A DNA stretch of 64,000 nt from contig NZ_FWEX01000006.1 of the NCBI RefSeq assembly GCF_900170025.1, positions 1,263,089 through 1,327,088 of the forward strand, given 5' to 3'. Of this stretch, positions 8,558-47,596 are shown one piece after another (position 1 is the stretch's first letter; the number at the start of each line of letters is the position of its first letter). The notes beneath the pieces were generated by a model. That model worked only from the letters and a program-made list of their open reading frames with translations, had not been told where the DNA came from and made no database searches. The translations under genes were made by a program, and so were the position numbers. The stretch is from Nitrospira sp. ND1. Lineage in GTDB: Bacteria > Nitrospirota > Nitrospiria > Nitrospirales > Nitrospiraceae.

Positions 8558-8860
8558 TTATTTGCCCTTTGCTTTCCCTTTGTGGCTCGAAGCCTGTTCC
8601 GCATGCGCCAGGGATTCCTCCGCATGTTTGACGGCTTCCTTCGCATGCTCCAGCGCTTCTTTCGCATGCGGATCGTTGCTGGCCTTGACCGACTCTTCCA
8701 GATGCTTGATCGCTTCCTTCTCGTGCTCCACGCCTTCCTTGGCGTGCTTGATCGTTTCCTTCACGTGCCCGCCGCCGTCGGCCAGGGCGTATCCCACCGG
8801 CGCAGTCGCCACCAGCGCGGACACGGCGAACGCGAGCATGCCTGAACGCAATACAGTCAT
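8558..8860 (-). CDS. SmbP-like His/Glu heptad-repeat periplasmic protein
   Basis: 100-aa product with signal peptide (MTVLRSGMLAFAVSALVATAPVGYALA). The mature part is a chain of 7-residue units in the style of H-A-K-E-x-[VL]-E/K-H-[AE]-[KE]-E-A, ending in a Lys-rich tail. This layout matches the small metal-binding protein SmbP described from Nitrosomonas europaea, a periplasmic helical protein that binds several copper ions through regularly spaced histidines. Role here is inferred: metal buffering or scavenging. Single gene with a hairpin downstream and no relative next to it. Confidence 0.75.
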   Translation of the reverse strand: MTVLRSGMLAFAVSALVATAPVGYALADGGGHVKETIKHAKEGVEHEKEAIKHLEESVKASNDPHAKEALEHAKEAVKHAEESLAHAEQASSHKGKAKGK

Positions 8861-9085
8861 CAGAATTCCTCCTGTGTGATAAGTGGATGTAGCACTCGAT
8901 TGGGCGGCATTCTACCGCATTTGTCATGTCTTGTTCAGTAGGGAAAGAGGAGGCCGCACTCACCGTGAGGGCAACGCATGCCTGAGAAGAAGATGGTGGG
9001 AGAGGGAAGCGCATGGGCGTACGCTTCCCTCATCGGAGCTCACTGCGTGGTCAGCGCAGTCCAACCGTCGAGCCCCGTCCACCGA

Positions 9086-9613
9086 TCATCGAACGTCAGC
9101 GGGCGTCAGCCAGGGCAGTCGACAGACGCCGCATCGGCCACGATCCGCCATGGCCTGCTGAGCGGGCGAATCCCAGCTCGCATACATCCATGATTCGTAC
9201 TGCCTCGTCCCCGCGCCATCCATCGTGAGACCGGCACACTTCTCCATCGCAAACACGGACGGCCTGGCCCGATAGGATCCGGGGCCTTCCGGATAGGGCT
9301 CGGACTCCACGACGAACGTGGTCCCCACGGGAAACGATTCATAGTCCGGCGTGAGCAGTGCCTTGGGGCACACGTAGAACCGGAGCCGTTTCCGCCCGCC
9401 GGGCGATTCCACCGTAGAGGTCAAGCTCGGCCAGTCCCGATACCCGAACGGAATCAAGAGCGTCGCAGCGGGAGGCGCCGGGGACCAGCCCTCGCTGATA
9501 TCGAGGGCGACCGCCAGCAATCGCACGACTGCCACACTCAACCCCGCCCTGTGTTGAGCGCCCTGAGCCATCTCCGCCCGACGCGGTGACGCCACCGCAG
9601 CACTAACCGGCAT
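9086..9613 (-). CDS. Cytochrome P460-like protein with a broken heme motif
   Basis: The 175-aa product aligns along its length with the P460 gene at 11.3-11.8 kb: IPFGYRDWPS versus LPADYKTWPK, FPVGTTFVVE versus FPQGTQLVME, VFAMEKCAG versus VFVMEKNEG. The C-terminal c-type heme site is CGVCR where the paralog has CRACH, so the proximal His is replaced by Arg and the protein ends soon after. The N-terminus is a weak or atypical signal sequence. An AGGGAGGT precedes the ATG. It lies 31 bp after the TPR gene and is probably co-transcribed with it. It may be a non-heme derivative or a decaying copy. Confidence 0.7.
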   Translation of the reverse strand: MPVSAAVASPRRAEMAQGAQHRAGLSVAVVRLLAVALDISEGWSPAPPAATLLIPFGYRDWPSLTSTVESPGGRKRLRFYVCPKALLTPDYESFPVGTTFVVESEPYPEGPGSYRARPSVFAMEKCAGLTMDGAGTRQYESWMYASWDSPAQQAMADRGRCGVCRLPWLTPADVR

Positions 9614-9644
9614 GGAGCACCTCCCTTCCTGACGCCTTCACTAC

Positions 9645-10799
9645 CTATCGCGTGAGTTCTCCGACCGCAGGCCCCTGGCGCATGGCCGAACCCTGCCGCA
9701 CGACTCCCGGCTGAACCCGCGCCCGGATCGATGCGGCCCGCGCAGCGAACAATCCGGCTTCAACCGGCTGCCCGAGAGTATCGAGCACGCGCGCATACCG
9801 CTCCACCAACAACCCGACGGTGGGATGATGCAAGCCCAGTTGCGCCTGTTGAACGACGAGCGCGCGCTGATACAACAACTGCGCCTGGGTCCATAGTCCC
9901 TGCTCATCGGCGAGAAACGCCATATTGCCGACAATCGTGCCGGTCAAGGAGGCCTGGGGTCCGGACGTCCGTTCCGCAATGGCCAGTGCCTCATCGAAAT
10001 ATCGTTGAGCCGACGCGTAGAGTCCTTCGGCCTGGTAGAGGCAGGCGGCGTTATTCAAACTCATCGCCACCGCCGGATGTTCATCGCCGAATCGCAGGCG
10101 GCGCATCTTCAGCGCGCGCAGGTAGAACGGTTCCGCCCAGGCATAGAGTCCGCGCCCCTTGTACAAGACGGCAAGGTTGTTGAGCACGGGCCCCAGATCG
10201 GGGTGATCCGTGCCACGGGCCTCTTCCATGAGAATCAGGGCCAGGTGATACATCGATTCGGCCGCTGTCTCCCGTCCCTGCTTGCGGTACAACTCGGCCA
10301 GATTGTTCAGGCTGATCGCGACATCGGGGTGCGCCGCGCCCAGCACCTTGCGCTCGATTGCCAGCACCCGTTCATATAGCGGCTCCGCGCGGCCCCAATC
10401 GCCTTCGGCATGGGCGATTTCCGCCAGGTTGTTTAAGGCCGCCGCGACATCTTCGTGTTCCGGCCCCAAGTGTTGTTCCCACATGGCCAGCGCACGGGTG
10501 TATAACGATTGCGCCTCCTGGAGACGACCCTGGTCGTGATACAGCAGTCCGAGATTGTTGGCTGCCGTGGCAACGCGGGCGTCGTCTGGACCGGCCTGCT
10601 CAGCCTCGCGGAGAGCGCGCTGCAAGAGCTGCTCAGCTTCGGCATAGTGCGCCGCTTCCCTGGCCTTCACACCATCAGTAAACAACTGCTTCCAAGCATC
10701 CGGCTCATTAGCCCAGCCCCCATCAACGCCGCACAAAGCCATGCCGACCACCAATGCCATGAGTAACCACCGCGGGGTTTTCTTCGTGCAATCAGCCAT
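9645..10799 (-). CDS. Exported tetratricopeptide-repeat protein (kinesin-light-chain type TPRs)
   Basis: 384 aa. A signal peptide or anchor (WLLMALVVGMALCGVDGGWA) is followed by about six or seven 42-residue TPR units carrying the NNLAxLY...G...A...Y.RAL pattern typical of kinesin-light-chain/TPR_12 repeats. Such repeats mediate protein-protein contacts; no enzymatic domain is visible. It precedes the P460-like gene by 31 bp. The transcription unit is preceded at 10884-10970 by the 87-bp leader repeat that also precedes the intact P460 gene. Confidence 0.85.
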   Translation of the reverse strand: MADCTKKTPRWLLMALVVGMALCGVDGGWANEPDAWKQLFTDGVKAREAAHYAEAEQLLQRALREAEQAGPDDARVATAANNLGLLYHDQGRLQEAQSLYTRALAMWEQHLGPEHEDVAAALNNLAEIAHAEGDWGRAEPLYERVLAIERKVLGAAHPDVAISLNNLAELYRKQGRETAAESMYHLALILMEEARGTDHPDLGPVLNNLAVLYKGRGLYAWAEPFYLRALKMRRLRFGDEHPAVAMSLNNAACLYQAEGLYASAQRYFDEALAIAERTSGPQASLTGTIVGNMAFLADEQGLWTQAQLLYQRALVVQQAQLGLHHPTVGLLVERYARVLDTLGQPVEAGLFAARAASIRARVQPGVVRQGSAMRQGPAVGELTR

Positions 10800-10883
10800 G
10801 GTGCGCCGCTCCCTCCACCGACTCCGTCGATTCTCTGTCCTGTATTCCCTGTCTCCGGCCTCTCCGCACTAACAGCCCGGAAA

Positions 10884-10970
10884 GCCCCGAAGGGCCGGGG
10901 TGGAGGGGGAGGCCATCCCACTCACCCCGGGAGGCAGATCCTGAAGAAGGGTGCACAACCTCAGGATCCG
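10884..10970 (-). repeat. 87-bp structured leader repeat, copy 1 (before TPR-P460-like operon)
   Basis: This is 84/87 identical to 11842-11928. Read on the minus strand it can fold into three stems: GATCCTGA/TCAGGATC, CCGGGGTG/CACCCCGG, and GCCC-UUCG-GGGC with a UUCG loop. It lies 85-171 bp upstream of the TPR start codon. The remaining 10971-11134 holds no gene that I can support. Confidence 0.75.
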
Positions 10971-11134
10971 AGGGACCTGTGACTCAAGCGGCCGATGGGC
11001 GGGGAACGGCCAACCACCGCTCCCCCATGGGACTCCTGCGAGGAGGTAGGTCAAGACCCGCACACAGGCCCCATCTGTCCTGCTCGTGGTCATGATGAAC
11101 GACCTGCTATTCCAAATCGGTATCAGCATCACCC

Positions 11135-11259
11135 GCAGGATGCGAAAAAAGGCCGTCCAGCAAGGCCGCAGCGAGCGAAGGGGCGAATCGTACTCGTGCG
11201 GTACGGTGAGCCGCGAAGCGATGCGAGAACGCCGCTGGCGGACTTTTTCCGCATCCTGC
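11135..11259. repeat. Dispersed ~125-bp palindrome-ended repeat, copy 1
   Basis: Ends are GCAGGATGCG-A-AAAAA and its near-complement TTTTT-C-CGCATCCTGC. The interior contains GGCCGTCCAGCAAGGCCGCA and GAGCGAAGGGGCGAA, shared with the inverted copy at about 45561-45686. Spurious ORFs run through it. Its last base coincides with the final G of the P460 stop codon (TAG). Confidence 0.75.
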
Positions 11260-11816
11260 TAGTGCGCCTTATGGCCCTGCGCACAAAACTCATCATACCG
11301 GTGCACGAAATCTTTCTGCGCGAGCGGGGCATGGCAGGCCCGGCATTTCGTAAAATCTTCGGCCAGCGCCTTGCCGTCCGGCCCATAGGCCCCGAGCACC
11401 CAGGCGCCGTTCTTCAAATTGTCCGGGACGTCCTGCCCCCACCCCTCGTTCTTCTCCATGACGAACACCTTCAGCAGGTCGCCTTTCACCAGCTTTCCGT
11501 CCGCCCCCTTGGCCAAGGCCTCGCCTTCCGCTTTAGCCTTGTACAACTCCATAACCAGTTGCGTGCCCTGCGGAAACGCGGAGGCCGGACAAGCCTTGGC
11601 GCCGGCTGGGCTCACGAACAATTCCCGCACCTGCTTGGCATCCTCACGCTGTACCTCGCTCAAAAACTTCGGCCAGGTTTTGTAATCGGCCGGGAGCGCG
11701 ATTTCGCCGTCCTTGGGGGCCGCCCCCGCTTCAGCAACCGTCGTCACGATCCCGCCGTTCCACGCCACCCCCATCACCACAATGAGGCTTAGTATCTCTC
11801 TCACCATCATGTTCAT
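11259..11816 (-). CDS. Cytochrome P460 family c-type heme protein
   Basis: 185-aa periplasmic protein: signal peptide (about 1-30), P460 fold (LPADYKTWPKFLSEV..., FPQGTQLVMELY, KVFVMEKN, GAWVLGAYGPDG) and the C-terminal heme-binding motif CRACH. Family members carry a Lys-cross-linked heme and, in ammonia oxidisers, oxidise hydroxylamine; the cross-linking Lys cannot be assigned by eye. The ATG at 11816 has AAGGAG at 7 bp, so the upstream extension encoded by the leader repeat (residues MGWPPPSPRP...) is not translated as part of it. The stop codon abuts the dispersed repeat. Confidence 0.88.
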   Translation of the reverse strand: MNMMVREILSLIVVMGVAWNGGIVTTVAEAGAAPKDGEIALPADYKTWPKFLSEVQREDAKQVRELFVSPAGAKACPASAFPQGTQLVMELYKAKAEGEALAKGADGKLVKGDLLKVFVMEKNEGWGQDVPDNLKNGAWVLGAYGPDGKALAEDFTKCRACHAPLAQKDFVHRYDEFCAQGHKAH

Positions 11817-11841
11817 CTCCTTCCTCCCGGTCTTGCCGTCG

Positions 11842-11928
11842 GCCCCGAGGGGCCGGGGTGAAGGGGGAGGCCATCCCACTCACCCCGGGAGGCAGATCCT
11901 GAAGAAGGGTGCACAACCCCAGGATCCG
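11842..11928 (-). repeat. 87-bp structured leader repeat, copy 2 (before cytochrome P460)
   Basis: Near-identical to 10884-10970 with three differences. One change turns an A-U pair of the first stem into a G-U pair, one restores an A-U next to the second stem, and one extends the hairpin GGCCCC/GGGGCC. It lies 26 bp upstream of the P460 start codon and 13 bp after the HTH gene stop. This suggests a cis-acting RNA leader rather than a random duplication. Confidence 0.75.
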
Positions 11929-11940
11929 TTTCCGACAGAC

Positions 11941-12189
11941 CTATCGTTTCATCGCCCTGCGCCCGCTGAGCGGCACCGCCTTAAGGTGCGGCGTCGGTTC
12001 TTGTGGACGCGGATCCGTTCGATTGCCTTCCACCAGCGCCGTCACGGAGACACGAAAAATGCGGAGGCTGCCTCCACCGATCTTCGTGGCATTGAGCCGT
12101 CCTTCATCGATCCACCGGTAGATCGTCCACTTACTGACTTGGAGCAATTGCGCGGCCTCTTTCACACGCAACAGCGGCTGTTCCACCAT
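11941..12189 (-). CDS. Excisionase/MerR-type helix-turn-helix DNA-binding protein
   Basis: 82 aa. The first 55 residues form an excisionase-family winged HTH (LLRVKEAAQLLQVSKWTIYRWIDEGRLNATKIGGGSLRIF) and a basic tail follows. A paralog lies at 38.6-38.8 kb with the same core. No recombinase is nearby, so a transcriptional or architectural role is more likely than excision. Its stop is 13 bp from leader repeat 2 and it points toward the P460 gene; the two may form one unit. Start codon choice is moderately certain (GTAGGCGAG upstream). Confidence 0.8.
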   Translation of the reverse strand: MVEQPLLRVKEAAQLLQVSKWTIYRWIDEGRLNATKIGGGSLRIFRVSVTALVEGNRTDPRPQEPTPHLKAVPLSGRRAMKR

Positions 12190-12561
12190 CTCGCCTACCC
12201 CTTCAACACCTTGGCGGTGGATAGGAGCGGTCCGTTACCGCTCCTCCCCCGACTGCAGGAAGGGGCACGAGCCTCCCGCACAACCGGGTCCACCATTCAG
12301 GACCGATACAAAACACATCGCGGTTCCGTCGTGGGAACCGGCAGCGGAGGTCACAGGAAACGCGCCTGCGCTGCCGGGCGGTCCGGGATCGGAGGGCAAT
12401 CCCATCCTCGGACTCAACATGCTTGAGTGAAATAGCTCGGGCCGAACGCCCGGACATGGCGGAGCACGGGACCGATATGACTCCCATTCGGCCTCTGGCC
12501 TGGACGACGGGATCGGATTCCTCTGTGCGATGAATCGGTGGCGACGCGCGCCCCGCCCGAA
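12190..12561. other. Gene-free stretch
   Basis: About 370 bp between the HTH gene and the RxPP gene at 12.6 kb. A small GGTTCC/GGAACC hairpin lies near 12322-12339. Open frames here have no recognisable protein features. I see no convincing RNA gene. Confidence 0.4.
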
Positions 12562-12894
12562 CTATCCCCTCACGGGGATGGGCGGCGCACGGGCATGAAG
12601 GGACGTGGGGTCCCCGGAAGTCAGGAAGAGCGGAGGGGTAATCAACGTGTGGGATTGAGCGACCCAGGCCGTGCCCACATCACCCTGGGAAATCGGGCCG
12701 ACATCTGATGTCGCCTGACAGGCCCAGGAGCAAAGGGTGGAATGGGATTCCGTGCCTGAATGCTGATGATGACTATCGGACGGGGTGGCATGGGCGAAGG
12801 AACAGCCCGGAGCCACAAGCGCCAGCACCACATACACCCAGACGATTCCGAGTGCGAGACCGGCCACTGAGGTTTGGGAGATTCGTCGGTTCAT
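12562..12894 (-). CDS. RxPP small exported Cys/His protein, type B (copy 1)
   Basis: 110 aa. One hydrophobic N-terminal segment (SVAGLALGIVWVYVVLALVA), a His-rich stretch (HATPSDSHHQHSGTESHS), a CSWAC pair and a C-terminal ARAPP. Related type B proteins lie at 32.2, 41.3 and 47.2 kb. Cys and His spacing suggests a metal-binding exported or membrane-anchored protein; no established function is known to me. It follows a regulon promoter (12921-12974) and appears to be monocistronic. Start at 12894 is chosen because the ORF extension to 12939 runs back through the -10 region. Confidence 0.6.
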   Translation of the reverse strand: MNRRISQTSVAGLALGIVWVYVVLALVAPGCSFAHATPSDSHHQHSGTESHSTLCSWACQATSDVGPISQGDVGTAWVAQSHTLITPPLFLTSGDPTSLHARAPPIPVRG

Positions 12895-12920
12895 GGTCTG
12901 ATAGTTCTCGCGTGCCGTAT

Positions 12921-12974
12921 CAATTACGCCGTTCGACACAAGTTGTCTACCGACGGATGCTCACGCGTGCTACA
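12921..12974 (-). promoter_or_regulatory. Regulon promoter for the type B RxPP gene at 12.6 kb
   Basis: Minus strand: TGTAGC-n4-GTGAGCA-n7-GTAGACA. TAGACA (12944-12949) is the -35 box, with a 17-bp spacer and TAATTG (12921-12926) as -10. Same order and spacing as the copies at 19.5, 22.5, 25.6 and 28.8 kb. Confidence 0.6.
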
Positions 12975-13044
12975 AAATGTGCGGCCTTGGTCAAACGCCT
13001 GTCCATCGAAAGTAACATATTCACGCGATGCCCGATCTCCCTGC

Positions 13045-22022: not shown

Positions 22023-22421
22023 TCAGTGCACGAGGAACGGGGGACCGCGGCCATGAGCCGCGACCAGCGGGCGGCCAGGATAGGACCACATCAGCAGGAT
22101 CAACGGCACGAAGAACGATACAAGGACCGGCAAACGAGGGATTTCCGGCAACACACATGCTGGTTCATCTTTGTTGACCTGACAGGCCCAAGCGGTTACC
22201 GGATCGACTTCGACGCGGCCATCGTGACAGGGGGACCGGTCGCCGTCGGTATGTAGATGGAAGGAGCGGCGCTGTGGCTCTTCAAAGTCGTAGAAACAGG
22301 CCGCGCAGACCACCGCCGCGATGAGCCGAATGATGATCAATAGGCAGGCCGTGCCGACCGCCAAAAATGACAACCGTCGATCAAGCGGCCTATGGGGGAT
22401 GAGGCGTACCGGCGAATGCAC
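22023..22421 (-). CDS. RxPP small two-TM Cys/His protein, type A (A2)
   Basis: 132 aa from GTG at 22421, which has GGAGA at 7 bp. TM1 (about 20-38), CAACF, FHLHTDGDRSPCHDG, WACQVNKDEPACVLPEIP, TM2 and AHGRGPP. The ATG at 22469 is upstream of the -10 box (22450-22455) and so cannot be on the transcript. Sits 131 bp before the receptor at 21.9 kb. Same alignment as A1, A3 and A4; presumed metal-responsive or metal-handling membrane protein. Confidence 0.7.
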   Translation of the reverse strand: MHSPVRLIPHRPLDRRLSFLAVGTACLLIIIRLIAAVVCAACFYDFEEPQRRSFHLHTDGDRSPCHDGRVEVDPVTAWACQVNKDEPACVLPEIPRLPVLVSFFVPLILLMWSYPGRPLVAAHGRGPPFLVH

Positions 22422-22449
22422 GAATTGATCTCCGCAGTAATACTGTTCG

Positions 22450-22505
22450 ACTGTACGCAGCCATTCCAAGGCCTGTCTACGGATGCCTGCTCACAGTTGC
22501 TACAG
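22450..22505 (-). promoter_or_regulatory. Regulon promoter for A2 and its receptor
   Basis: Minus strand: CTGTAGC-n4-GTGAGCA-n7-GTAGACA. -35 TAGACA at 22474-22479, spacer 18 bp, -10 TACAGT at 22450-22455. It directly abuts the preceding terminator hairpin. Confidence 0.65.
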
Positions 22506-28356: not shown

Positions 28357-28755
28357 CTAGCAGGCGCTGAGGGGAGGACCGCGGCCATTGGCCGTAATCG
28401 GTATGAGACTACGATAACTGATCAACAGGAACACGAGCGGGACGAAGATCGACACGACGACCGGCAAGCGGGGAATCTCCGGCAGGACAAACGCCGATTC
28501 ATCTTCGTTGACGGAACAGGCCCAGACGATCCACAGGCTGGCCGGAGCCAGCCCATGGTGGCATCGATCACGATCCCACCCGCTATGGAGATAGAAGGCC
28601 CGCGTCTTCGCCTGCTCCCAATCGGTAAAGCAGGTCGAGCAGACGATGCTTGCCGCGAAGCGAATGCCGATGAGCAGGCAGGCAAGCAGCGCAACCAGCC
28701 GAGGGGTCCGGCCGGATCGATCGGTCGCATGCATGGCGCGAAGAAACTCGTTCAC
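28357..28755 (-). CDS. RxPP small two-TM Cys/His protein, type A (A4)
   Basis: 132 aa from GTG 28755 (AGGA at 8 bp). TM1 (about 19-37), CSTCF, FYLHSGWDRDRCHHG, WACSVNEDESAFVLPEIP, TM2 and NGRGPP. First gene of the cassette with the receptor at 25.8-28.1 kb. It establishes the type A length and start used for A1 and A2. Confidence 0.7.
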   Translation of the reverse strand: MNEFLRAMHATDRSGRTPRLVALLACLLIGIRFAASIVCSTCFTDWEQAKTRAFYLHSGWDRDRCHHGLAPASLWIVWACSVNEDESAFVLPEIPRLPVVVSIFVPLVFLLISYRSLIPITANGRGPPLSAC

Positions 28756-32172: not shown

Positions 32173-32508
32173 TCACGACGCGAGGGGAGCCGGAGGAGCA
32201 CGTGAACGAATCACGGAAGAACGGGAATGGGCGCTCGGGGAAAAGCGCGTCTCTGCCCCGATCGCTGCCGAGACAACCGGTGCATCCGGAGGCATGTCCG
32301 GGACTAGTCCCGTGTCGGCTTGGCTCTGGCAGACCGCGCTACAGGGAAGGGCATGGGCTGTGTCGTGGGAATGGGTCTGTGAACCCGGTACGGGAACAAG
32401 ACCCGTGCCGACGCAGACCGGGGAGGCAGCCAGGACAAGGGCGTAGAGGACGACGAACAGCCCTGTCCCGATACGACACTGCCCGCTCCCTCGAACCACT
32501 GCTTTCAT
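32173..32508 (-). CDS. RxPP small exported Cys/His protein, type B (B3)
   Basis: 111 aa. Hydrophobic N-terminal segment (LFVVLYALVLAASPVCVG), a His-containing stretch (SQTHSHDTAHALPCSAVC) and a C-terminal RSRAPP. The Cys pair is CSAVC rather than the CxWxC of the other type B proteins. Start at 32508 lies only about 10 bp below the -10 box, so the mRNA may be almost leaderless, in keeping with the lack of an SD. It precedes the coiled-coil receptor by 93 bp. Confidence 0.58.
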   Translation of the reverse strand: MKAVVRGSGQCRIGTGLFVVLYALVLAASPVCVGTGLVPVPGSQTHSHDTAHALPCSAVCQSQADTGLVPDMPPDAPVVSAAIGAETRFSPSAHSRSSVIRSRAPPAPLAS

Positions 32509-41296: not shown

Positions 41297-41617
41297 TTAC
41301 GATTGAACGGGCGGCGCGCGAGAGGCGGCGTGGAAGCCCGCGCCGCCGGCGATGACGGTATGATCGCGCTCGACAAACAGCGCGACCACAAGGAACGGAT
41401 GAAGCACCAGTGCGGACGCCGCAGCATCCGACGTGGGATTGGCCTGACAAGCCCAATTACAGAAACTGGAGTGAGAGACCGTTCCGCCATGATGATGGCC
41501 GGCCGACATGGGGTCGGCATGGTCGAAGGCGCAGGCCATGGAGAACGCCGCCAGGACCAGATAGATCCCCGCAAGTGCGGCCGCGAGTCCGACGGAGGGT
41601 GTCTTGAGACGGCTCAT
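41297..41617 (-). CDS. RxPP small exported Cys/His protein, type B (B2)
   Basis: 106 aa from ATG 41617. Hydrophobic N-terminus (AAALAGIYLVLAAFSMACA), a His-rich stretch (DHADPMSAGHHHGG), SFCNWACQ and a C-terminal SRAPP. Its ATG overlaps the stop codon of the TlpA gene (ATGA), so translation is coupled. It precedes the coiled-coil receptor gene by 110 bp. Same family as the proteins at 12.6, 32.2 and 47.2 kb. Confidence 0.62.
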   Translation of the reverse strand: MSRLKTPSVGLAAALAGIYLVLAAFSMACAFDHADPMSAGHHHGGTVSHSSFCNWACQANPTSDAAASALVLHPFLVVALFVERDHTVIAGGAGFHAASRAPPVQS

Positions 41618-42159
41618 GGCATCAGCCCCTGCAACGCCTGCACCGCCTTGGGCGCATCCCACTCACGCGGTCCGACAGCGCGGCCCAGCAAGGCCCCCTG
41701 CCGGTCGATGAACACCGTGGTCGGCAAGGCCCGCACCAGATAGGCTTGCGAGACATCCTGCTGCTCGTCGAACAACACGGGGAGTTGCACGTTGAGATTA
41801 GCCAGGAACTGCTTGATGCCGGCGCGCTGCAAGTCGGTCGTGATGGTCAGCAACACGAAGCGGTCGGGGTCCAGCTGCCGTCGCAGACGCTCAAAGGCCG
41901 GCATTTCTTCTTTGCAGGGCCCGCACCAGGTGGCCCAGAAATTCACCACGACGACTTTCCCCTTCAAGTCCGCGAGTTGCACCGACCGGCCATCCAGCGA
42001 CTGTAGCTCAAAGGCCGCAGCGGCAGTGCCCGGTGCAACCCGCGCGATTTTCAACGCGGCGAAAGGATCATCCGCCCATACAGGACCGGCCGTCGTGCTC
42101 AGCACAACCGCCAGCATGAGGCCTCTCAACAATCCCGTCGGCATCATCGTTCCAATCAC
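41614..42159 (-). CDS. TlpA/ResA-type exported thioredoxin
   Basis: 181 aa from GTG 42159 (177 aa if ATG 42147 is used). Signal peptide, then a TlpA-like thioredoxin domain: FELQSLDGRSVQLADLKGKVVVVNFWATWCGPCKEEMPAF with WCGPC active site, and the cis-Pro loop LPTTVFIDRQG. Periplasmic thiol reductase, probably keeping Cys residues of neighbouring exported proteins reduced (inferred). It lies 12 bp after the BNR protein gene and overlaps the RxPP B2 start. Confidence 0.9.
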   Translation of the reverse strand: MIGTMMPTGLLRGLMLAVVLSTTAGPVWADDPFAALKIARVAPGTAAAAFELQSLDGRSVQLADLKGKVVVVNFWATWCGPCKEEMPAFERLRRQLDPDRFVLLTITTDLQRAGIKQFLANLNVQLPVLFDEQQDVSQAYLVRALPTTVFIDRQGALLGRAVGPREWDAPKAVQALQGLMP

Positions 42160-47194: not shown

Positions 47195-47500
47195 TTAGGC
47201 GAACAGGGGTGGAGCGCGAGGCCGACTCGGGGCGAGTCGCTGGGGCAAGAGCACAGTATCAGAGCGGAACGAAGCGTCACCGGCCACGGTGAACAGATGC
47301 GTCGAGTGAACGGGGGTCACCACGTGCACCCCGGCCGTCGCACACATCCAGGCACAAATGCCTGACCCATGCATCCCGGCATCGTGATGCGCGGCATGTT
47401 GAAGTTCGTGCGCGACCGCGTTCACGGTCGTCACCGCCAATAAGGCAATGACGGCGAATGCGACCAACCAGACGATGCTTTTAAAACGGGAACTTCGCAT
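47195..47500 (-). CDS. RxPP small exported Cys/His protein, type B (B4)
   Basis: 101 aa from ATG 47500. Hydrophobic N-terminus (WLVAFAVIALLAVTTVNAVA), HELQHAAHHDAGMHG, CAWMC and a C-terminal RPRAPP. Behind a sigma-70-like promoter rather than the regulon type. Precedes BNR copy 2. Confidence 0.62.
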   Translation of the reverse strand: MRSSRFKSIVWLVAFAVIALLAVTTVNAVAHELQHAAHHDAGMHGSGICAWMCATAGVHVVTPVHSTHLFTVAGDASFRSDTVLLPQRLAPSRPRAPPLFA

Positions 47501-47527
47501 AAGGACAGGCCCAAAATCTGGCCCGCA

Positions 47528-47556
47528 TGCTAACAAACTGACCGACGGAGCGTCAA
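47528..47556 (-). promoter_or_regulatory. Candidate sigma-70 promoter for RxPP B4
   Basis: Minus strand TTGACG (47551-47556), 17-bp spacer, TTAGCA (47528-47533). Start codon 28 bp downstream of the -10 box. Confidence 0.35.
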
Positions 47557-47596
47557 CGCCACTTTTGGCCTCCAAGGGCCATTCGGCCGGGGCCGG

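Follow-up and report, generated by a model that had tools for sequence, protein, structure and literature searches.

The closest described counterparts of the locus analysed here are bacterial systems in which a short upstream open reading frame (uORF) acts on the genes behind it. CruR is defined by a CXXC motif and a C-terminal RAPP sequence; its peptide senses copper while still being synthesised and governs Rho termination, and copper had no influence on transcription termination in vitro (PMC9426467). In the CutF system a CxxxC motif and a proline-rich end unfold a stem-loop that masks a Shine-Dalgarno (SD) sequence (PMC9973294). Tandem hairpins are also known from the ar14 sRNAs, in which an unpaired CCUCCUCCC motif is carried by each of three hairpins (PMC10746234). 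CruR/CutF-like ORFs are a recently described type of copper-sensing uORF, and the RNA element reported here lies in clusters that have such ORFs at their head. Post-transcriptional control of metal homeostasis is little known in Nitrospira-type bacteria, and a full-text literature search on Nitrospira with the terms "structured RNA" and "covariance model" returned nothing beyond a general review.

Element A and its gene neighbourhood in the window

The window, i.e., the whole 64,000-nt stretch of Nitrospira sp. ND1 DNA that was analysed, belongs to a genome close to Candidatus Nitrospira defluvii (its P460 is 95% identical to the P460 of FP929003.1). The sequence-only reading of this DNA had described a duplicated 87-bp stretch ahead of two P460 transcription units, and the duplication was reproduced. 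The copies at 10884-10970 and 11842-11928 (87 nt each, 84/87 identical, 97%, spacing 958 nt), hereafter element A, do lie upstream of the TPR/P460-like genes and of the intact P460 gene: copy 1 is separated by 84 nt from the TPR ATG at 10799, and copy 2 by 25 nt from the P460 ATG at 11816. The order on the minus strand is CruR/CutF-like ORF, type-B element, HTH_17, copy 2, P460, a REP-like inverted repeat, copy 1, TPR, degenerate P460 and SmbP-like gene. Bit scores marked CM refer to home-made covariance models (R1 and R2), which were calibrated short, so that their E-values are rough.

12562-12939 (-), CruR/CutF-like ORF; motifs CSWAC and, at the C-terminus, ARAPP; unmatched in Pfam
12339-12413 (-), type-B element, a twin hairpin between the CruR/CutF-like ORF and HTH_17; CM R2 53.4 bits, E 3.5e-7 (filters off)
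11941-12189 (-), HTH_17 (excisionase/MerR-like) gene; PF12728, E 4e-13; stop codon about 12 nt before copy 2
11842-11928 (-), element A copy 2, putative 5' UTR/intercistronic twin-hairpin RNA between HTH_17 and P460; CM R1 93.1 bits
11259-11816 (-), intact cytochrome P460, first cistron after copy 2; CRACH haem motif; PF16694, E 3.3e-26
10884-10970 (-), element A copy 1, putative twin-hairpin RNA before the TPR and P460-like genes; CM R1 90.9 bits
9645-10799 (-), exported TPR protein, first cistron after copy 1; TPR_12/TPR_10
9086-9613 (-), degenerate P460-like protein with CGVCR and no CxxCH; PF16694, 20 bits, below the cut-off
8558-8860 (-), SmbP-like small metal-binding protein; PF16785, E 2.2e-8

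From its motifs, the 9086-9613 protein is probably a degenerate or repurposed P460 paralogue. The inverted repeat at 11130-11264, between P460 and copy 1, has 26-nt arms that are 85% complementary and looks like a dispersed palindromic repeat. A strong hairpin pair at 8985-9085 (-) precedes the SmbP-like gene, and a similar sequence follows the element in a relative from another genus (L096), upstream of an F7 gene; this pair is possibly a further structured RNA of the cluster.

The whole 4.45 Mb genome was found to contain two copies of element A only, the remaining matches being 14-26 nt long with E > 2, and the many unlinked copies that would have spoken against an RNA role did not appear.

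Folding, conservation and distribution of element A

When folded with 4-5 nt of flanking sequence, both minus-strand copies form three adjacent hairpins, and their stability exceeds that of dinucleotide-shuffled sequences (z about -3). The structure consists of a 12-bp stem 1, a stem 2 of up to 15 bp and a 3-bp UUCG mini-hairpin, located in copy 2 as follows.

11893-11928 (-), stem 1, 12 bp, loop UUGUGCACCCUU at 11905-11916
11853-11888 (-), stem 2, up to 15 bp, apical loop UGGCCUC
11843-11852 (-), stem 3, 3-bp mini-hairpin with a CUCG loop (UUCG in copy 1 and in most relatives)

Three stems, one of them with a UUCG loop, had been proposed from the letters of the two copies, and the three hairpins stand in both copies, the UUCG loop in copy 1 only. 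The three differences between the copies had been proposed to keep or improve pairing. At minus-strand position 10 (A/G between copies) an A-U pair of stem 1 becomes G-U, and at position 68 (C/U) stem 2 of copy 2 is improved and a pair is added; the third difference, at position 80 (U/C), falls in the stem-3 loop, which reads UUCG in copy 1 and CUCG in copy 2.

Covariation was examined in two alignments. In the first (A1), which was not fitted to the structure and was controlled by shuffling and sliding, both-side changes were found in 98 cells as compared with 38 in the shuffled and at most 28 in the slid controls, and 90% of the cells were paired as compared with 35-67% on sliding. The second (A2) comprised 95 distinct relatives and was fitted to the model, hence leaning towards the model structure; in it, both-side changes occurred in 29 of the 30 pairs (375 cells vs 117 in shuffles), including 11/12 pairs of stem 1, where 94% of the cells were paired, and 15/15 pairs of stem 2, and helix 3 was paired in 95.8% of the cells. 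G-U cells numbered 285 and A-C cells 65, and since the former far exceed the latter the minus-strand RNA is taken as the selected molecule. Among the 95 distinct sequences the stems were more variable than the loops: the stem-1 loop motif UUGYGCACYCUU was present in 58, and 81 had CCUCC in the apical region of stem 2, usually in the form GGCCUCC. Judged by these substitution patterns, element A is a genuine minus-strand structured RNA, and its structure is well supported. The absence of conserved pairs, which would have told against the earlier proposal of an RNA-level function, was not observed, and that function is strongly supported by the covariation in A1 and A2 together with the genome count of two copies.

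A pseudoknot between loops 1 and 2 (CACC/GGUG) was considered by eye and discarded, being possible in some genera and impossible in the genus of the window. A coding reading of element A was likewise rejected on the single-nucleotide length differences between species and the compensatory nature of the changes.

Within the genus, 25 of the 29 genomes carry element A, and plain DNA comparison detected it in eight genera of Nitrospiraceae. With a covariance model derived from a MAFFT alignment of 33 sequences the count rose to 77 of 175 Nitrospiraceae genomes and 10 of 22 genera, usually with one or two matches per genome; the sample includes many metagenome-assembled genomes, and genes were assigned by local tblastn and Pfam. 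Among 395 genomes drawn from the phylum no element A was found outside Nitrospiraceae with strict filters, which weak relatives may escape. A comparison of window positions 9000-13000 with Rfam, run at a permissive threshold as well, gave a best score of 16.3 bits against a gathering score of 45, i.e., no family, and none was matched at gathering in the loci of twelve relatives (121 kb). Element A is a previously uncatalogued RNA family, absent from Rfam 15. A plasmid collection searched by DNA similarity yielded short GC-rich chance pieces only, and viral contigs scanned for the loop-1/stem-1 pattern yielded none.

The mean identity of element A in 10 genomes of the genus was 93%, as compared, in the adjacent P460 gene of the same genomes, with 87% at codon positions 1 and 2; third positions reached 57% and four-fold sites 55%. 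In twelve two-copy genomes the identity was 91% between paralogues within a genome, 92% and 94% between orthologues, and 90.5% between paralogues of different genomes. Since paralogue and orthologue identities are similar, strong purifying selection rather than recent duplication accounts for the near-identity of the copies; on these figures the two copies are old. The same values (91% for paralogues vs 92-94% for orthologues, 90.5% across genomes) led us to reject gene conversion between the copies.

Downstream genes, the putative copper-type cluster and the type-B element

The next recognised gene downstream of element A was determined for 80 loci: P460-type in 23, TPR in 20, SmbP-like in 18, exported HMA in 14, F29 in four and F31 in one. 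It lay on the same strand in 80/80 loci, 9-258 nt downstream of the element; orientation alone is weak evidence because all genes of the cluster point one way. In many P460 and F29 loci the start codon was 15-30 nt from the element, and in the 50 HTH-adjacent loci measured the HTH stop codon was commonly 6-15 nt before it. The idea of an RNA for P460 expression is therefore too narrow, since orthologues also precede TPR, SmbP-like, exported HMA and F29 genes. What the loci have in common is a cluster with CruR/CutF-like ORFs at its head, not P460.

An ORF with CxxxC and RAPP motifs was present at most 2.5 kb upstream of the element in 82 of 89 loci; the control expectation was 0.07 such ORFs per 2.5 kb, a value that is inflated, all five control matches coming from the rest of the window. 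Both motifs of the 12562-12939 ORF were invariant or nearly so in 12 relatives. Comparison of three RAPP ORFs with Pfam, including DUF2946, gave no match up to E 0.5, and because both motifs are carried and a Pfam match is absent the ORFs are labelled CruR/CutF-like, not members. SmbP, HMA, TonB receptor and PepSY genes surround the element loci, and the copper link of the clusters is drawn by association, from the motifs and neighbouring genes. Six ORFs that resemble CruR and CutF in having CxxC/CxxxC and C-terminal RAPP/RGPP motifs occur in a 35-kb part of the window, all on the minus strand (12562-12939, 22023-22469, 28357-28755, 32173-32508, 41297-41662 and 47195-47575), which suggests a large copper-type supercluster; one of these six was compared with Pfam and gave no match.

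Within the genus, 12 of the 13 two-copy genomes carry the intact P460 and 0/12 single-copy genomes do (a weak match in G002 fits the degenerate P460 after TPR). The intact gene behaves like a cassette with a direct copy of the element on either side. In the single-copy genomes the element has the HTH-side flank of copy 2 at one end and, at the other, the TPR-side flank of copy 1; to judge from these hybrid flanks, the P460 gene was evidently lost (or gained) by recombination between the two copies. In G009 and G015 a P460 gene stands in a different context with no element beside it, which shows that P460 as such can do without the element.

In 18 of 21 SmbP loci (L153-L169, L178, L181) a -10-like box was found between the element and the SmbP-like gene, as compared with 2.2 expected. 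This box, of the TATACT type, is conserved as GTGTATACT / TGTATGAT. Its presence indicates that the element is not simply an SmbP leader in these loci, which belong to other genera; the box may be an internal promoter of a longer operon, or else the element may be part of the upstream transcript. A trans-acting or 3'-UTR role of the element would agree with this arrangement.

A search of the window with R2 (filters off) ranked the two A copies second and third after the type-B element, with E 0.03-0.04, itself a rough value; this is consistent with a common ancestry of A and B. Of the 175 Nitrospiraceae genomes, 101 contained type B according to the R2 model, the number per genome ranging from one to eleven. 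In many loci it lies between the CxxxC...RAPP ORF and the following gene, and copies also occur between other cistrons of these clusters. Its covariation amounted to 47 cells vs 12, with 97% paired. The CCUCC motif was present in 37/45 and 33/45 B elements (the latter for loop 2); the stem-1 loop of A differs. Tandem arrays of type B were seen in two genomes (L219 and L221).

Proposed function and relation to described systems

On balance we favour element A as a cis-acting intercistronic or leader RNA with recognised loops, which would tune the expression of exported metal and haem proteins; judging from its genomic setting it probably helps to set the yield of such exported haem- and metal-binding proteins. 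In the proposed mechanism the 87-nt element would be transcribed from the minus strand within a polycistronic mRNA headed by the CruR/CutF-like copper uORF at 12562-12939. Between the preceding stop codon and the next ribosome-binding site (RBS) the RNA would fold into two adjacent hairpins and the UUCG-type mini-hairpin, and the pyrimidine-rich loops UUGYGCACYCUU (stem 1) and GGCCUCC (stem 2) would present a recognition surface for a protein, another RNA or, by loop pairing, the downstream RBS. Engagement of the loops would then alter the yield of the next exported protein (P460, TPR, SmbP-like or HMA) post-transcriptionally. Transcription as a single unit, recognition of the loops, an effect on expression, copper as the trigger and the direction of control are all parts that we infer. 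A separate promoter would not fit into the 25-nt gap before the P460 ATG, and the element would have to be part of the P460 mRNA unless transcription starts inside it. A simple scan found no promoter consensus around the A copies and no intrinsic (U-tract) terminator at either of them. SD pairing with the element in 80 leaders was 0.197 for real and 0.290 for shuffled elements; simple SD masking is not favoured by these values, and since pairing lies below the shuffled control the element seems to fold as a self-contained module.

This cis-acting module is preferred to a trans-acting RNA or a mere stabiliser. Self-folding in place of pairing with the adjacent RBS would also suit a trans-acting sRNA of the anti-Shine-Dalgarno type, or an sRNA that the uORF transcript releases from its 3' end, with C/U-rich loops that would pair with many RBSs. 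The CCUCC of the stem-2 apical region in 81/95 A elements and of loop 2 in 33/45 B elements, the architecture of the ar14 sRNAs and the position of the element upstream of a promoter-like box in SmbP loci all agree with such an sRNA; nevertheless we consider it unlikely, as the simple scan predicted neither promoter nor intrinsic terminator around the A copies, the stem-1 loop UUGYGCACYCUU is not anti-SD, and the element keeps its place directly before particular genes (25 nt from the P460 start in the window). A passive intercistronic hairpin, stabilising or insulating processed segments of the operon mRNA with no specific partner, would explain GC-rich self-contained hairpins that often start 6-15 nt past the HTH stop, an RBS left free more often than with shuffled elements, and the type-B copies placed likewise between other cistrons. 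Loops conserved over many genera on variable stems are not expected of a mere stabiliser, however, and this account, too, seems to us unlikely.

Least likely are a riboswitch proper and a DNA-level repeat. Aptamer-like conserved loops on covarying stems, in a metal/haem gene context, could point to an RNA that itself binds a metal ion or a haem-related ligand and switches the next gene, but we hold this to be very improbable: the A copies show no U-tract terminator and no conserved SD pairing that could serve as an expression platform, the fold has simple hairpins only, without a multi-helix junction, and in the related CruR system copper is sensed by the nascent peptide and in vitro termination is copper-unresponsive (PMC9426467). 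A REP/BIME/MITE-like repeat or recombination site devoid of RNA function would fit the P460 gene bounded by direct copies and its distribution between two-copy and single-copy genomes (12/13 vs 0/12), the hybrid flanks, as inter-copy recombination would give, and the type-B tandem arrays of two genomes. Such repeats come in many scattered copies, though, and this genome has two A and one B, the A copies at one conserved locus type; the excess of G-U over A-C and the compensatory changes show selection on one RNA strand, which makes a pure DNA repeat scarcely credible. The suggestion that a repeat had been co-opted is not supported either, the locus type being conserved across ten genera.

Beyond the cis-acting module, A and B could be two branches of a new regulatory RNA superfamily, restricted to Nitrospiraceae so far and working with copper-sensing uORFs: the peptide would report copper to the head of the operon, and the iterated twin hairpins would relay the decision from one cistron to the next, to P460, SmbP and further exported metal proteins, via loop recognition or direct metal sensing. 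This extension is speculative and we regard it as doubtful. An RNA family with strong covariation and signs of selection is of interest in bacteria central to nitrite oxidation and comammox, and its defined stems and loops make a second, RNA-encoded layer of control in such operons directly testable.

Among described RNAs, Rfam PhotoRC-I (RF01716) has little beyond a terminal GGCCCYUCGGGGCC hairpin in common with the element, which, scoring 16.3 bits (E 0.82) where the gathering score is 45, is not a member. The alphaproteobacterial ar14/NfeR1 sRNAs resemble it in their tandem hairpins, unpaired C/U-rich CCUCC loops and variable stems; they are free-standing and trans-acting (PMC10746234), whereas element A sits before specific genes and its stem 1 bears a different conserved loop. 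CruR, a DUF2946 uORF of Bordetella pertussis, shares the CxxC-type and RAPP motifs of the head ORF and a place in copper-linked TonB-dependent transporter operons, but works through Rho-dependent termination within a region that is unstructured; the accessible part of the report mentions no conserved twin hairpin (PMC9426467), and the Nitrospira head ORFs lack a Pfam DUF2946 match. In the cutFOG operon of Rhodobacter capsulatus, also of copper type, an exported head uORF with CxxxC and a proline-rich C-terminus is combined, as in Nitrospira, with a structured intergenic RNA ahead of genes for exported metal proteins (PMC9973294). There a single stem-loop right after cutF masks the cutO SD (PMC9973294), whereas the Nitrospira element is an 87-nt twin hairpin without measurable SD masking; it recurs along the operon, is usually separated from the uORF by hundreds of nt, and is conserved in sequence and loops across genera.
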